This document shows, in pieces, positions 51,882-57,682 of a stretch of DNA of 64,000 nucleotides. Under the pieces are notes generated by a model. The model saw only the letters and a list, made by a program, of their open reading frames with translations. It was not told the DNA's origin and did not search any database. The stretch's first letter is position 1, and each line of letters begins with the position of its first letter. The stretch comes from a virus. Location: positions 24,751 to 88,750 of IMG/VR virus record IMGVR_UViG_3300047476_001680; one strand, 5' to 3'. The translations under genes and the position numbers were made by a program.

Positions 51882-53654
51882 ATGTTCAAAATTAAGTCGT
51901 TAACACTAAAAAACTTTATGAGTGTGGGTAATGCCACACAGGCAGTTAATTTTGATCGTGAAGATCTGACCCTGGTGCTGGGCGAAAACGTAGACCTGGG
52001 CGGGGATGATGCTGGTGCTAGAAATGGCACTGGTAAAACTACCATCATTAATGCCCTGAGCTATGCGCTCTACGGTGAAGCACTGACCAAGATTAAAAAA
52101 GATAACTTGATCAATCGCACCAATGCCAAAAATATGTTAGTGACCATTGACTTTGAGTGTAATGGTCAGGAATACAGAATTGAACGAGGCCGTAAACCCA
52201 ATGTAATGAAGTTTTTTATTGGCGGCGATGAACAAGAACAAAAAGAAGATGAGAGTCAGGGAGACAGTCGTGAAACACAAGCGGCCATCGAGCACTTACT
52301 CAATATGAGCCCGGATATGTTCAGGCACATTGTTGCCCTGAATACCTACACTGAGCCCTTCCTAAGCCTCAGGGCTAATGATCAGAGAACTATTATCGAA
52401 CAATTACTGGGTATTACTATGCTCAGTGAAAAAGCCGAGTCACTCAAGGAGCAGCAAAAGCTGACCAAGGAAGCCATACAGGAAGAGGACTTTAGGATCA
52501 AGGCCACTCTGGATGCCAACAAACGCATACAGGAACAGATTGCCAACACTGAACGCAGACAAAAACTCTGGCGCCAGAAACACGACGAGGATTTAGCCGC
52601 CATACAGGCCGCTTACGATGAACTTGCCAAGTTGGACATTGAGCAAGAGTTACTGGCACACCAGGCTTTGACCAATTATAAGGAACAGATTAGAACTTTG
52701 CAGGAAAGTCAACGCTGGATCAAGAGCATAGACTCTGAAAACGCCAAGTTGAACAAGACCGTGGAGACTTTAAAAAAAGAACTAGCCGCCCTGGACAATC
52801 ACGAATGTTACGCCTGTGGGCAGGCATTACACGACAGTAAACAAGACGAGATTCGTGCTGCTAAAACCAAACAGATGCAGGAGACTGCGCTGCAAATTCT
52901 TTCCAACGAAACACAACGTGGCGAGCATCAGGCTGTGGTGGAATCTTTAAAGTCGCTGGGTGCTGAACCCGTGACTTTTTATGCTACCGAAGGCGACGCT
53001 TTTGAACACCGTAGCAGTATGGCGGCACTGCTCACTCAGTTGTCTGCAAAGCAGGCCGAGCACGACCCCTACCAGGATGCCATCACAGAAATGCGTGAGC
53101 AGGCCCTGCAGGAAGTAAGCTACGATCTAGTTAACGAACTGACCAGTCTTCGAGACCACCAGGAGTTTTTGTTAAAACTACTGAGTAACAAGGACAGTTT
53201 CATTCGCAAGCGTATTATTGATCAGAACTTAAACTACCTAAATGCCCGACTGGGTCACTACTTGGATAAAATTGGCCTACCGCACACAGTTAAATTTAAC
53301 AATGACCTCACAGTGAGTATTGAAGAGCTGGGCCGTGAACTAGACTTTGATAATTTAAGTCGCGGTGAACGCAACAGATTAATTTTAAGTCTGAGCTGGG
53401 CTTTTCGTGATGTCTGGGAGAGTTTATATCAGAGTGTTAATTTATTGTTTATTGATGAGCTAATTGACAGTGGACTGGATAGTTCGGGTGTGGAAAATAG
53501 TCTTGCATTGCTGAAAAAAATGAGCCGAGAAGGCAACAAGAGTGTCTGGTTAGTGTCTCATAAAGACGAACTGATTGGACGAGTGGGCAATATTATGCGA
53601 GTGGTCAAAGAAAACGGATATACAATTTACAATACTGATGTTGACCTCGCCTAA
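51882..53654 (+). CDS. 46: Recombination endonuclease subunit gp46 (Rad50/SbcC type)
   Basis: This is an ABC-type ATPase of the SMC/Rad50 group. Walker A is GARNGTGKT (45-53). The zinc hook is CYAC (Cys309, Cys312) in the middle of coiled-coil arms. The signature LSRGERNRL lies around 493 and Walker B LLFIDEL around 522, followed by DSGLD. With gp47 it forms the phage resection nuclease. AGGAAC precedes the ATG. The last 17 bases are overlapped by a radical SAM gene, an unusual neighbour for gp46. Confidence 0.95.
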   Translation: MFKIKSLTLKNFMSVGNATQAVNFDREDLTLVLGENVDLGGDDAGARNGTGKTTIINALSYALYGEALTKIKKDNLINRTNAKNMLVTIDFECNGQEYRIERGRKPNVMKFFIGGDEQEQKEDESQGDSRETQAAIEHLLNMSPDMFRHIVALNTYTEPFLSLRANDQRTIIEQLLGITMLSEKAESLKEQQKLTKEAIQEEDFRIKATLDANKRIQEQIANTERRQKLWRQKHDEDLAAIQAAYDELAKLDIEQELLAHQALTNYKEQIRTLQESQRWIKSIDSENAKLNKTVETLKKELAALDNHECYACGQALHDSKQDEIRAAKTKQMQETALQILSNETQRGEHQAVVESLKSLGAEPVTFYATEGDAFEHRSSMAALLTQLSAKQAEHDPYQDAITEMREQALQEVSYDLVNELTSLRDHQEFLLKLLSNKDSFIRKRIIDQNLNYLNARLGHYLDKIGLPHTVKFNNDLTVSIEELGRELDFDNLSRGERNRLILSLSWAFRDVWESLYQSVNLLFIDELIDSGLDSSGVENSLALLKKMSREGNKSVWLVSHKDELIGRVGNIMRVVKENGYTIYNTDVDLA

Positions 53655-54501
53655 AATTTTACATTTAGAACCCACTGATGTGTGTAATCTAGAATGTCCG
53701 CTATGTGCTCGTGTAGTTGACACTGAATTCAACTCCGCACACCAAAATCATCTTAATGTCAATCAAATAAAAGCATTGTTTAGCGTGGACGAGATTAAAT
53801 GTTTAGACAAGATGTTTATGTGTGGTAATTATGGTGACCCAGCGGCAGGAAAATTCACACTAGAATTATACAGATATTTTCGTGAGGTCAACACCAATAT
53901 TATTCTAGGTATGAACACTAGCGGAAGTTTGCGCAATGTCGAGTGGTGGATTGAACTAGCGCATATTTTAAATAAATCAAAAGATTATGTAGTGTTTAGC
54001 ATTGACGGACTTGAAGATACTAACCACATTTATAGAGTCAATAGTATCTGGGATAAAATTATCACTAATGCCACTGCATTTATTCGTGCTGGTGGACAGG
54101 CGCACTGGGATATGTTAGTATATAGACATAATGAACATCAAGTTGAAGCTGCTATACAGCTGGCCCGACAGATAGGATTTAAATGGTTTAGAACTAAAGT
54201 AAGCAAACGCCCCCTAGTTAACGGACTCGAGACCCCCGTGCACTGGGTTAAGCCATCAATTACTCTTGGCACTATTGATTGTATTGCACTGCGTGAACAA
54301 AGTCTTTATGTAGATGCTACTGGTAGAATAAGCCCCTGTTGTTGGCTGGGTGCTAGAAAAAGTAATTTTATTGCCGATTTTGATCAAGTCAAGGCATCTT
54401 GGCTGTCAGACAAACCTGAACCAACTTGTTTAATGACTTGCGGCACTAGATCTAATATATCAAATTTTGAAAATCAATGGACTAGCGAGGTGGAATTATG
54501 A
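53638..54501 (+). CDS. Radical SAM enzyme with SPASM-like C-terminus (287 aa)
   Basis: The radical SAM motif is at Cys16, Cys20, Cys23 (DVCNLECPLC). The usual GGEP is replaced by a GNYGDP motif at about residue 63. Near the C-terminus VDATGRISPCCWLGA and CLMTCG supply cysteines for an auxiliary SPASM-like cluster. I use the ATG at 53638, which puts the motif at the expected distance from the N-terminus and overlaps gp46 by 17 bases; an upstream in-frame start would lie well inside gp46. The stop overlaps the next ATG (ATGA). The substrate is unknown; SPASM-type enzymes often modify peptides. Confidence 0.88.
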   Translation: MLTSPKILHLEPTDVCNLECPLCARVVDTEFNSAHQNHLNVNQIKALFSVDEIKCLDKMFMCGNYGDPAAGKFTLELYRYFREVNTNIILGMNTSGSLRNVEWWIELAHILNKSKDYVVFSIDGLEDTNHIYRVNSIWDKIITNATAFIRAGGQAHWDMLVYRHNEHQVEAAIQLARQIGFKWFRTKVSKRPLVNGLETPVHWVKPSITLGTIDCIALREQSLYVDATGRISPCCWLGARKSNFIADFDQVKASWLSDKPEPTCLMTCGTRSNISNFENQWTSEVEL

Positions 54502-55511
54502 AACTAGCTACCTGGCATTGGCATATAGAAATTTCCAGTAAATGTACACTACGGTGCCCACGTTGTGCTAGATCTGAAGTTCCTGACTCATTGGTGAATA
54601 CTGAGTTAAGTTTAGATTTTTTTAAAAACACATTTACCCCTAAATTCATAAAAGACAATTTAGAAAAAATTACATTCTGTGGGGATGATGGAGATCCAAT
54701 CTACGCTCACGATTTAATACCTGTAATAGAATATATCAAAAGTGTTAAGCCGGTTAAATTTGTTATCATCACTAACGGTAGTTATAAAAAAGCTAGTTGG
54801 TGGAAACAGCTTGGCCAAATACTTGACGAAAATGATCACGTACATTGGAGTCTAGACGGATGGGATCAAGACAGTAACGAAAAGTACAGGGTTAATTGCA
54901 ACTGGGCGAGTATCATTGAAGGTATAAGAGAGTTTCGAGCATCGAGCTCGGCTTATATGACCTGGGCTTGTATAGCATTTAAGTTTAATCAAGATCACAT
55001 AGAGTCAATGAAGTTAATGGCACGTGATCTTGGCTTTGATCAGTTCCAGTTGACTCTTAGCACGAAATTTAATAAAGTATATCCTGTATATCCTGCAGGA
55101 GATACTTTACAACCACGTGGTGATTTGATTAGCGACAACTATAGATTTCAACGACAATTTGAATATATTAGTGGTCGTAGACCAAGCAACGTTGGTGTAA
55201 ATACAAATCTTGGCCTTTATAATTCGGCTCAAACATATAACGATGTCAAACCGCTATGTAGCATAGGAAATAAAGGATTGTATTTAAACAGCCAAGGGCG
55301 ATTATTTCCTTGCTGCTGGGTCGCCAATAGATATAATCACAACAATGAATGGGCTAAATTAAGCGAACGTTTTGATTTAAATATTCGTTCGATAGATTCA
55401 GTGTTATCTGACCCGTTTTGGTCTGGTGATTTTGAAAATTTTCACTGGACTGAATGCAACACTAAATGTAATATACAAGTAGTAGATGAACAGTATTCTA
55501 CCGAATGGTAA
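54498..55511 (+). CDS. Radical SAM enzyme with SPASM-like C-terminus (337 aa)
   Basis: This is a paralogue of the preceding gene, with the cluster cysteines at identical positions 16, 20 and 23 (SKCTLRCPRC) and GDDGDP in place of GGEP. The C-terminal LNSQGRLFPCCWVANR parallels VDATGRISPCCWLGA of its neighbour, and a final CNTKC pair could complete the auxiliary site. It overlaps the previous gene by four bases. The two form a tandem duplication inserted between gp46 and a nuclease gene, a place where T4 has no such enzymes. They differ from the minus-strand array, whose extra cysteines are N-terminal. Confidence 0.9.
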   Translation: MKLATWHWHIEISSKCTLRCPRCARSEVPDSLVNTELSLDFFKNTFTPKFIKDNLEKITFCGDDGDPIYAHDLIPVIEYIKSVKPVKFVIITNGSYKKASWWKQLGQILDENDHVHWSLDGWDQDSNEKYRVNCNWASIIEGIREFRASSSAYMTWACIAFKFNQDHIESMKLMARDLGFDQFQLTLSTKFNKVYPVYPAGDTLQPRGDLISDNYRFQRQFEYISGRRPSNVGVNTNLGLYNSAQTYNDVKPLCSIGNKGLYLNSQGRLFPCCWVANRYNHNNEWAKLSERFDLNIRSIDSVLSDPFWSGDFENFHWTECNTKCNIQVVDEQYSTEW

Positions 55512-55534: not shown

Positions 55535-56095
55535 ATGCCAAGTCCACAAAAAGCCAAGGGTTCAAGCTGGGAGCGAGATGTCGCAAAATATCTTAGCGAC
55601 CTTTACGGGGAAACATTTATACGTGCCCCAGGATCTGGCGCTTATGTGGGCGGATCTAACGCAAAACGCAAGGAAGTGCTACACGAAGGGCAGATTAGAA
55701 GCTTTAAAGGTGATATTGTGCCCGGGCAGAGCTTCCCACGTTTAAATGCTGAATGCAAAAGTTATAGCGATCTAGCGTTTCATCAACTTTTCACCGGCAG
55801 CGTTAAACAATTAGATAGCTGGATCACACAGTGTTTGGATGCTGGTGACGCCGGTGATGCTAATATCATTTTTATGAAGTTCAATCGAAAAGGTAAATTT
55901 ATATTATTACAAATTAAGCCATCTGACACCACGTCAACTAAAAACCACGAAAATATCTCTGACACCACGTCAAATCTTGTTTTAAAAAATCACTTTATAT
56001 ACAACACAGAAAGCCAGGGGACCTGGGTTTTAATGTCCCTGGAAAGTTTTTTTGATTTAAATGCCGCAGAGTTTAAACAACTCTGCGCTGCGTAA
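55535..56095 (+). CDS. PD-(D/E)XK nuclease, Holliday-junction-resolvase-like
   Basis: The N-terminal helix KGSSWERDVAKYLSDLYG with its conserved Glu, then FKGDIV (Asp) and AECKSY (Glu-x-Lys), reproduce the E...D...ExK layout of the PD-(D/E)XK nuclease fold, as in RecU/Hjc-type resolvases. At 186 residues it is single-domain. It follows the gp47/gp46 recombination genes, which fits a branch-resolving role. The stretch KPSDTTSTKNHENISDTTSN (about 128-147) is a probable loop with a repeated SDTTS. The last codons form a GC-rich hairpin (CGCAGAG/CTCTGCG). Confidence 0.75.
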   Translation: MPSPQKAKGSSWERDVAKYLSDLYGETFIRAPGSGAYVGGSNAKRKEVLHEGQIRSFKGDIVPGQSFPRLNAECKSYSDLAFHQLFTGSVKQLDSWITQCLDAGDAGDANIIFMKFNRKGKFILLQIKPSDTTSTKNHENISDTTSNLVLKNHFIYNTESQGTWVLMSLESFFDLNAAEFKQLCAA

Positions 56096-56565
56096 TACAG
56101 TAGTAATGTCAAGGCCCTGTTGGTAGGAGTTGTCCTATCCCCATTGAGCCAGCCGAGGTAGAGCTCGTTGCCGGCGGATTCTTGGGTGCCAGTAAAGTAA
56201 GTGCCGCTCTAGAGCATAAATGATTCAGGCCCTGTGAAAAAGATACAACCTGAACTTCTTGACTTGCAGTATGGTTGTGAGTTAGGAGGTACCGTTGATA
56301 ATGCAAAGGCGAGAGTAGTGGGGGTACCGGTCAACCGCCTCCCAGTGTGTATACACTAGCTCTTCCAACCATAGGCTGTGTCCGGACTCGTCGGAAGACC
56401 ACGCCAATTTGCCCGTATCGGGCAAATTGTGGCTGAAGGATCTGTCGGAATACCTGAGATGATATAATAGACAAGATGATATATTCTAAATCACTCTGAT
56501 GGAATTAAAAGAAGTTATCGAGCGATAGCGAAGATAACAGACTTGCGTAGCAAGTCTTAGAAGCA
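56096..56565 (+). ncRNA. Candidate structured RNA (470 bases without a convincing gene)
   Basis: No plausible protein gene is found on either strand. By hand count G+C is 32-33 of 60 bases in three stretches (56161-56220, 56281-56340, 56341-56400), against 22 of 60 just upstream (55981-56040). Potential helices: GGTAGGA/TCCTATC with a GTTG loop (56122-56139); TAGAGC/GCTCTA (56159/56206); TTCAGG/CCTGAA (56224/56249); TATGGTTG/CAACCATA (56270/56366); TCTTCC/GGAAGA (56361/56393); GCCAATTTGCCC with GGGCAAATTGTGGC (56403-56433); GTTATC/GATAAC (56514-56538); AGACTTGC/GCAAGTCT (56539-56557). The fourth and fifth are interlocked, a pseudoknot-like arrangement. AGGCCCTGT occurs twice (56112, 56227). 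The strand and class are unknown. Confidence 0.5.
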
Positions 56566-56787
56566 TTAATAGATAGGTTGTCCAACTTTCTTACTAGCTT
56601 CTAGATTTTCGGATATAAGCTTACCTATGAGTTCACGATCCAGAGGGCTTAATTGATAAGCTTCGGTGTAGGTCACACTGCCTCTCATCCACCAACATAT
56701 TCTCACTATTTCTTCCTTAAGGGCTTTTGCTTGGCGTTCTAGGCTATCAGTGAAGTCCTTGATATCCTCGGCCTGAGTTAACTGCAA
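56566..56787 (-). CDS. Small protein following gp26 (73 aa)
   Basis: The sequence ERQAKALKEEIVRICWWMRGSVTYTEAYQLSPLDRELIGKLISENLEASKKVGQPIY fits a small family that I recall after gp26 in marine T4-like phages. The role is unknown, possibly hub assembly. The only start available in frame is TTG, with AAGG just before it, six bases after the gp26 stop. It ends at the edge of the candidate RNA region. There are no motifs for enzymatic activity. Confidence 0.75.
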   Translation of the reverse strand: MQLTQAEDIKDFTDSLERQAKALKEEIVRICWWMRGSVTYTEAYQLSPLDRELIGKLISENLEASKKVGQPIY

Positions 56788-56792
56788 AAGCC

Positions 56793-57662
56793 TTAACCGA
56801 AAAAAGTGCTATAATCAAACTCAATGGGGGTATCGTAATTGTGACCGCACTCCATACACTGAATTTTCTGATCAGGTGTCTTGCCCTGTTTGGCTAGTTC
56901 TCCCACTAGTTCCTGTACTTCCCTCACAGTGTTCATATCAGCGTTTCTATAGAAGTCCATTATCATTCTGGGATCATCAACTTCCGTTCCGTCGGGCGTG
57001 GTGATGGAATGTGTGCTGCCAGCCAGTACGCTGAGATTCAGATCCACTAATTTTTTTAGATGTTCTTCAGCAATTTTCTTTTTTTGATCATCGTTGAGTG
57101 TGTCATCTTGAAATGCCTGAGCCACTCTCGCTTCACTGAAGTTAGCTAGATTTAATTCGCTCAGACTCTGATAATTTTGTGGTTTAAACAGAAACGTCAA
57201 ATCCCCAATCTGATAGCTCTGGTTGTAGTCTGGTGCCCGGACGCTGTTAATCACACCATAGAGGGGTATGTCATAATTACTTTCTGTCTTGCAGTTGGGG
57301 CAAATTGTGCTGACCTCCATATTTTCACCGTAGCTGGCGATTCTGATGCCCATCAGCACAGTGTCCACATCAACGTTGGGCATCTTCCAGGCATCCTTAA
57401 TACAAGGGCAGCAACTTTCTATGACTTCTACTACAGCGGCACCAGTGAGCAAGGCGTCGGGCATCTTGAGGGTGATTTCGTTCTGCACAGTCATCGGAAA
57501 AATAGGAATTTGCCCATCGGGCGGTATTTCCAAGCTACCCTCAGGCCAATGTTCACCGCCGCTGGGCAATCTTAAATAGACCGCTGCCTGTCTAAAATGA
57601 CTCTTGAGAGGATTGTCCATAACATTGTTTTTAACACCAACCGGGGTTCGAGAATTTGCCAT
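56793..57662 (-). CDS. 26: Baseplate hub subunit gp26
   Basis: The C-terminus CMECGHNYDTPIEFDYSTFFG and the mid-protein CPNCKTESNYDIPLYG are two zinc-ribbon-like CxxC segments characteristic of gp26-type hub proteins of marine T4-like phages. HFRQAAVYLRLPSGGEHWPEGSL near the N-terminus also fits. I take the ATG at 57662; the frame opens slightly earlier at a TTG. gp26 is longer here (289 residues) than in T4 (208). Its promoter region is shared with the divergent tape-measure gene. Confidence 0.85.
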   Translation of the reverse strand: MANSRTPVGVKNNVMDNPLKSHFRQAAVYLRLPSGGEHWPEGSLEIPPDGQIPIFPMTVQNEITLKMPDALLTGAAVVEVIESCCPCIKDAWKMPNVDVDTVLMGIRIASYGENMEVSTICPNCKTESNYDIPLYGVINSVRAPDYNQSYQIGDLTFLFKPQNYQSLSELNLANFSEARVAQAFQDDTLNDDQKKKIAEEHLKKLVDLNLSVLAGSTHSITTPDGTEVDDPRMIMDFYRNADMNTVREVQELVGELAKQGKTPDQKIQCMECGHNYDTPIEFDYSTFFG

Positions 57663-57672
57663 ATTTTGATCC

Positions 57673-57682
57673 AATAAATAAA
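57673..57682 (+). promoter_or_regulatory. Late-promoter-like AATAAATA for the tape-measure gene
   Basis: AATAAATA (seven of eight to TATAAATA) lies about 53 bases before the ATG, in the 72-base divergent gap. On the opposite strand GTTAAATA (57718-57725) could serve gp26 at a similar distance, giving two facing late promoters. Confidence 0.55.

Follow-up and report, generated by a model that had tools for sequence, protein, structure and literature searches.

The Polynucleobacter-1 motif (RF01718) was described in 2010 from Burkholderiales and from freshwater and estuary sequence (Weinberg et al. 2010, PMC2864571). Among the long structured phage RNAs with pseudoknots are GOLLD and ROOL, the former having a conserved 3′ region and a variable 5′ region (PMC12286853). 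A different kind of phage transcript is found at the replication origins of T4, which has at least five early origins. Middle promoters serve oriF and oriG, several of the origins are located at strand-switch points, and the R-loops form without a specific sequence (PMC3016281). We show here that a gene-free stretch of a viral genome carries a conserved + strand RNA, homologous to RNAs found at the same locus in many jumbo myoviruses. The giant phages that share it are only very distant relatives.

The window (the whole 64-kb stretch of DNA analysed, G000:24751-88750) is part of an 88,750-base virus record. A sequence-only reading had proposed a new structured RNA at positions 56096-56565, in a G+C-rich stretch without a convincing gene, where a recombination operon and the gp26 operon meet. 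Most of this held. The element is real, with the RNA itself at 56112-56557 on the + strand, and a structured RNA at this convergent-operon junction is supported. The G+C content of the gene-free stretch is about 0.47-0.50, higher than that of the 5′ flank (0.35-0.36); no PHROG or Pfam family is matched by any of its four longest small ORFs, and indels exclude a conserved frame. The claimed absence of tRNA, tmRNA, and group I intron signatures was also confirmed, as Rfam models and ARAGORN returned nothing for the window: no Rfam family, GOLLD and ROOL included, and neither a tRNA nor a tmRNA. The genes flanking the stretch are:

55535-56095, + strand: RusA-like / PDDEXK_15 endonuclease gene (phrog_244, E 4e-19; PF24608, E 2.5e-26)
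56566-57674, - strand: convergent genes, a 73-aa ORF (gp51 counterpart by position only) and a gp26-like baseplate hub (phrog_150, E 1.5e-17)

The gp26-like hub is closest to those of jumbo myoviruses (31.6% to Phosso, 30% to Atu_ph07, 27% to the PA5oct group, and 23-27% to RaK2-like phages). We also observe a tandem pair of radical SAM genes (308 and 337 aa, window 53575-55511) separating gp46 from the RusA-like gene.

The region of the window that holds the RNA is also present in three viral contigs (L001-L003). Compared with L001, the window shows 92.0% identity across 56112-56455 and 94.3% across 56505-56557, the part that comprises the two 3′ hairpins; the corresponding values are 73.7% for the upstream RusA gene, 57% for the linker (56456-56504), and 86.9% for the 73-aa gene. 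Single-base indels separate the two RNA sequences which, together with a conservation exceeding that of the upstream gene, indicates that the region is non-coding. The substitutions preserve pairing on the + strand (G-U to G-C, U-A to U-G, C-G to U-G), some pair changes being fully compensatory, and we assign the RNA to this strand because its G-U pairs would be A-C mismatches on the other. It is therefore very likely that 56112-56557 (+) is a structured RNA, neither a gene nor a chance arrangement. Its parts are as follows:

56112-56557, + strand: whole RNA element, ~450 nt, ends inferred from conservation with L001
56122-56139, + strand: 5′ hairpin GGUAGGA/UCCUAUC, preserved in L001 (G-U to G-C)
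56148-56175, + strand: possible helix GCCAGC/GCCGGC with an A-C mismatch; a C-G pair of the window is U-A in L001 (two sequences only)
56224-56254, + strand: stem UUCAGG/CCUGAA around GGCCCUGUGAAAAAGAUACAACC, preserved in L001 (U-A to U-G); similar GCUCUGUGAAAAAGAUACAACCU in several relatives
56270-56373, + strand: long-range helix UAUGGUUG (56270-56277) / CAACCAUA (56366-56373) enclosing the pseudoknot, from complementarity only
56294-56335, + strand: pseudoknot stem S1, GUUGA (56294-56298) / UCAAC (56331-56335), double changes at 4 of 5 pairs
56320-56342, + strand: pseudoknot stem S2, GGGGG (56320-56324) / CCUCC (56338-56342), crossing S1, with variants in relatives
56344-56357, + strand: variable hairpin AGUGU/ACACU, compensatory G-C to A-U in L001, different or absent in other relatives
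56386-56396, + strand: repeat word X1 after ACUC, word GUCGGAA at 56390-56396, equal to X2 in 26/26 relatives with 11 different words
56404-56432, + strand: G+C hairpin separating the X words (12-bp stem with a GU bulge), covarying in relatives
56440-56450, + strand: repeat word X2 after AUCU, word GUCGGAA at 56444-56450, equal to X1 in 26/26 relatives
56514-56538, + strand: 3′ hairpin GUUAUC-GAGCGAUAGCGAA-GAUAAC, loop constant and stems varied in most relatives
56539-56557, + strand: 3′ terminal hairpin AGACUUGC/GCAAGUCU, in most relatives, stems varied

The long-range helix is invariant in L001 and hence without covariation support. The 3′ terminal hairpin has no U-tract on the + strand and is terminator-like only on the - strand. 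Two structures already claimed in the sequence-only reading have homologue support, namely the 12-bp stem with a GT bulge (56404-56415 with 56419-56432), which takes in relatives forms such as UUUGCCC/GGGCAAA, UUCACCG/CGGUGAA, and UUCUGCU/AGCAGAA, and an interlocked pair (56294-56298 with 56331-56335 crossing 56320-56324 with 56338-56342), which is a true pseudoknot. The claim of a duplicated nonamer, AGGCCCTGT at 56112 and 56227, failed: relatives have AGGCCCAGT / AGGCTCTGT, and we reject it as a functional repeat, the duplication being unconserved and attributable to chance.

Simple searches did not reach beyond the closest relatives. A blastn of the window RNA against annotated phage DNA gave no match, scanning viral contigs for exact blocks of 20-22 bases recovered only the three close relatives, and the additional matches of a 16-mer scan of viral contigs were due to chance. 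When 84,980 bacterial and archaeal genomes were scanned with one sequence pattern, the four matches obtained were confined to the 21-base search word and were rejected as homologues, since nothing matched beyond it.

Profile searches recovered a much wider family. A gp26 profile search retrieved 80 viral loci. With a profile built on the window RNA, homologues were located in the interval that separates gene 51 from the RusA-like gene, antisense to gp26, and iterating this search raised the number of loci with a homologue, in the database searched, to 48. The covariance model R1 matches 35 of the 55 jumbo-phage loci examined at E<=0.05, 26 of the sequences having themselves built the model. 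The R1 matches share their position and orientation, next to RusA/EndoVII-46-47 and antisense to baseplate genes 26/51. Long contigs contain one copy each (345 kb, 289 kb), as does G000, and the window matches at E 5e-14 (its sequence is included in the model), with both S1 and S2 present at 5 bp each. Three deviations were observed: L152:6655-6792 is the sole locus with the RNA on the strand of gp26, a local inversion; L131:4032-4233, and also L132, shows an insertion of ~60 bases between S2 and X1, evidence that extra hairpins are tolerated there; and L180 (Agrobacterium phage Atu_ph07, record 490077-490159) gives a weak R1 match (E 0.19) near the record end, away from gp26.

The pseudoknot of these RNAs is supported by covariation. 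S1 is found in relatives as GUUGA/UCAAC, GUUGC/GCAAC, GUUGU/ACAAC, GUUGG/CCAAC, GUCAU/AUGAC, or GUCGU/ACGAC, and S2 as GAGG/CCUC, GUGG/CCAC, CGGG/CCCG, AUAGG/CCUAU, or GUAGG/CCUAC, with a pseudoknot loop, UACCGG, that is near-invariant. Across the 26 window-type cores, 79.8% of pseudoknot cells pair (73.7% in shuffles) and 32 cells show double changes (11.7 in shuffles); the covariation score is 0.264 versus 0.170 when shuffled, a value reached by 0/500 shuffles, and structures slid along the same cores score at most 0.160. Since the 5′ side of S1 is misaligned in several sequences, including the window, these covariation figures are conservative.

A second set of sequences comes from the RaK2-like phages. 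The same place in 121Q, GAP32, CBB, BF, XbC2, and Munch is a gene-free gap of ~0.68-0.84 kb, and, used as a query against 121Q, Munch, BF, GAP32, and XbC2, the gap sequence recovers 4-5 related copies in each genome, which lie on a single strand. These copies contain long invariant blocks and start after a TGnTATAAT box, upstream of which is a TGAAAC/TGGAAC element, an arrangement similar to the second of the promoter classes that have been reported in phage CBB (PMC5259590), and some have a terminator-like hairpin between the two X words. R1 was built without RaK2-type copies; nevertheless, its five best matches among 12 reference jumbo genomes (GAP32 99065 and 35502, BF 30644, XbC2 29133, Munch 100471; E 0.007-0.18) are all RaK2-type copies, in the right strand and position. 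These matches are individually weak but their joint location is beyond chance, so that the RaK2-type copies are homologous to the window RNA. This homology is established by the profile route only, as direct local alignment of the window RNA with the RaK2-type set is not significant. In the RaK2-type pseudoknot, 240/240 cells are paired and 37 show double changes versus 9.2, with 0/500 shuffles reaching this number. The window-type and RaK2-type alignments are independent and give one fold, with compensatory changes, the check named in the sequence-only reading, in both sets; the RNA core is an H-type pseudoknot, followed in the 3′ core by a duplicated module with the same 7-base word twice and by two hairpins.

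These observations bear on the possibility that the stretch is a DNA element or a set of chance hairpins without a functional RNA. The single-sequence folding energy is only modest and alike on both strands (z -2.1 on + and -2.5 on -), which is weak evidence by itself and would fit such an explanation. Nevertheless, it is contradicted by the strand-specific G-U changes, the covariation of the pseudoknot in two sets, and the constant strand of the homologues, and we regard it as practically ruled out.

The window RNA is unmatched in Rfam and the core is absent from Rfam 15. In eleven relatives (L103, L159, L091, and eight others), the RNA does have RF01718 for its 5′ domain, matched full-length and at 80-119 bits (gathering score 37 bits) and immediately preceding the R1 core on the same strand. 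RF01718 has no match in the window at E<=10, nor at gathering, it leaves RaK2-type phages unmatched, and a profile of the RF01718-type 5′ domain recovers only its own clade and not the window, which indicates clade-specific 5′ domains joined to a conserved 3′ core. The claim that the RNA is new therefore holds only in part: it is an undescribed core and a divergent variant of a partly catalogued RNA. We found no description of the pseudoknot core, the paired words, or the multi-copy form in the literature searched (CBB, MIJ3, jumbo-phage biology), but the PA5oct transcriptome work and preprints lay outside it, and earlier notice of the RNA remains possible.

At this locus, phages of the PA5oct group carry ~1.4 kb of gene-poor DNA, and sequence related to it recurs at other places in the genome. 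In L075, L076, and L077, at least three related gene-poor one-strand elements (GGTAGTAGAAACTATCCCCATCGTGC ... TTTTGGGTGC) are annotated as many tiny ORFs. The elements of this group are probably a further branch of the RNA family, with homology unproven: the motifs shared with L001 are suggestive, with a chain alignment z of 3.8 (0/200 shuffles, forward only), but the window gives z 0.75 and R1 has no match, and motif-pair scans intended to bridge PA5oct and the window returned only known relatives and unrelated G+C-rich matches. Sinorhizobium phage Phosso shows a hairpin-rich, gene-free stretch of 1 kb between RNase HI and RusA (L019:7266-8279), with a motif, GAGCGAATAGCGAAG, resembling the loop of the window 3′ hairpin. 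This gap was rejected as a homologue, as neither alignment nor R1 detects a match to the RNA.

The two 7-base words show an unusual evolutionary signature. After the pseudoknot, window-type RNAs have the order ACUC-X, G+C hairpin, AUCU-X, and the two X words are identical in all 26 aligned cores, across which they take 11 forms, while permutation gives a mean of 3.6 identical pairs and a maximum of 10 in 2000. In RaK2-type RNAs, identity holds copy by copy, with GUGUCA twice in the Munch 100k copy and CGUCA-type words twice in its sister copies, and CCGUCAG twice in the BF 93k copy where other copies have UCGUCAG. No complement of X was found within the RNA, and a pairing partner in cis was rejected, own complementarity (5.64) being no higher than permuted (5.74). 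As the relation between the words is identity and not complementarity, both might meet one common partner, or both modules might be converted together; no partner has been identified, and the words offer a concrete handle on it. Alternatively, the words could be the reaction sites of a ribozyme or self-processing RNA, an activity that is only inferred. Perfect co-varying direct repeats around a hairpin and a compact pseudoknot with a near-invariant loop would fit, but there is no internal guide complementary to X and no match to ribozyme or self-splicing intron families in Rfam, making this very unlikely.

The copies of RaK2-like phages are co-oriented and spaced by 52-112 kb, more evenly than random (P 0.0008-0.0018 for gap variation in four orthologous, non-independent genomes; 0.026 in 121Q). 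The five BF copies (L047, L051, L056, L062, and L065, at record 30335, 93061, 174529, 258839, and 335353) overlap no annotated gene, or merely spurious small ORFs. This distribution suggests the main rival to our reading, that the transcript primes or marks replication origins in the manner of the oriF/oriG middle-promoter R-loops, a type of origin that combines a promoter with an A+T-rich unwinding element. In favor are the 4-5 evenly spaced copies, the promoter box before each RaK2-type copy, the T4 precedent of multiple origins, some promoter-driven and some at strand switches, and the strand switch at the BF gp26 copy, where GC skew changes sign. Against it, the skew is unchanged at the other four BF copies and, apart from that strand switch, GC-skew minima were not seen at the copies, each 289-345-kb contig of window-type phages shows a single copy, no promoter is visible before the window copy, and the jumbo-phage RNA preserves an elaborate fold, whereas T4 R-loops need no specific sequence. 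We consider this rival to be serious, although the evidence leans against it.

A cis role is also conceivable, either in the recombination operon, as a structured 3′ UTR or an element for stability or processing, or as a leader for downstream co-directional genes. The window copy begins 16 bases past the RusA stop codon and has no visible promoter, the four extra BF copies immediately precede genes on their own strand, some RaK2-type copies have the terminator-like hairpin between X words, and RF01718 is marked 'y' in the property column after the RNA column (Weinberg et al. 2010), which we take to be possible cis-regulation. However, the universal copy faces a convergent gene and is for this reason not the leader of the next gene, the genes flanking the BF copies have no common function, and the pseudoknot core is preserved in both settings. 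We therefore find a cis element unlikely.

The reading that we prefer is a free-standing, trans-acting phage RNA, although it is inferred, with no function shown and no expression data, and could as easily prove wrong as right. The RNA of RaK2-like phages would be made from its own promoter, often with a terminator-like hairpin, and that of the window, in front of which no promoter was found, would probably be produced with the RusA/recombination-operon transcript, at its 3′ end. The pseudoknot would serve as a scaffold and the two identical words as two equal binding sites for one partner, nucleic acid or protein, co-evolving with the phage; RNA abundance and the identity of the partner are guesses. 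The varied gene neighborhoods, the promoter, the terminator-like hairpins, and the convergent gene opposite the universal copy fit, by inference, a free-standing RNA. Against the trans reading count the missing promoter of the window RNA, the missing complement of X, and two further observations: a purely trans-acting RNA leaves the even RaK2-type spacing unexplained, and the BF copies before co-directional genes might also have a cis role there. A bolder and less probable possibility is a widespread jumbo-phage RNA machine, whose evenly spaced, co-oriented copies would organise replication or gene expression and whose partner would be recognised via two identical, fast-changing 7-base words. 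To our knowledge, no other RNA has such a bivalent recognition scheme. Because several carrier phages infect ordinary laboratory hosts, the function of this long-orphan phage RNA is directly testable.

Compared with the known systems, the RaK2-type copies resemble oriF/oriG in that there are several promoter-driven transcripts per T4-like genome, but the minimal T4 origins are ~100 bp without a conserved RNA fold, and origin activity of the jumbo-phage RNA is only inferred. Like GOLLD and ROOL, this is a long structured phage RNA with a pseudoknot and, as in GOLLD, a conserved 3′ part follows a variable 5′ part. It differs from both in its length of ~450 nt, its other conserved motifs, the lack of Rfam match and of oligomer evidence, and the absence of tRNAs in the window or loci scanned. 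RF01718 belongs to the same RNA but covers 141 nt only, excluding the pseudoknot core, the X words, and the 3′ hairpins. One RNA family with a proven core unites this orphan Polynucleobacter-1 motif, unannotated 0.7-0.8-kb gaps in 121Q, GAP32, CBB, BF, and Munch, and the environmental phage analysed here.
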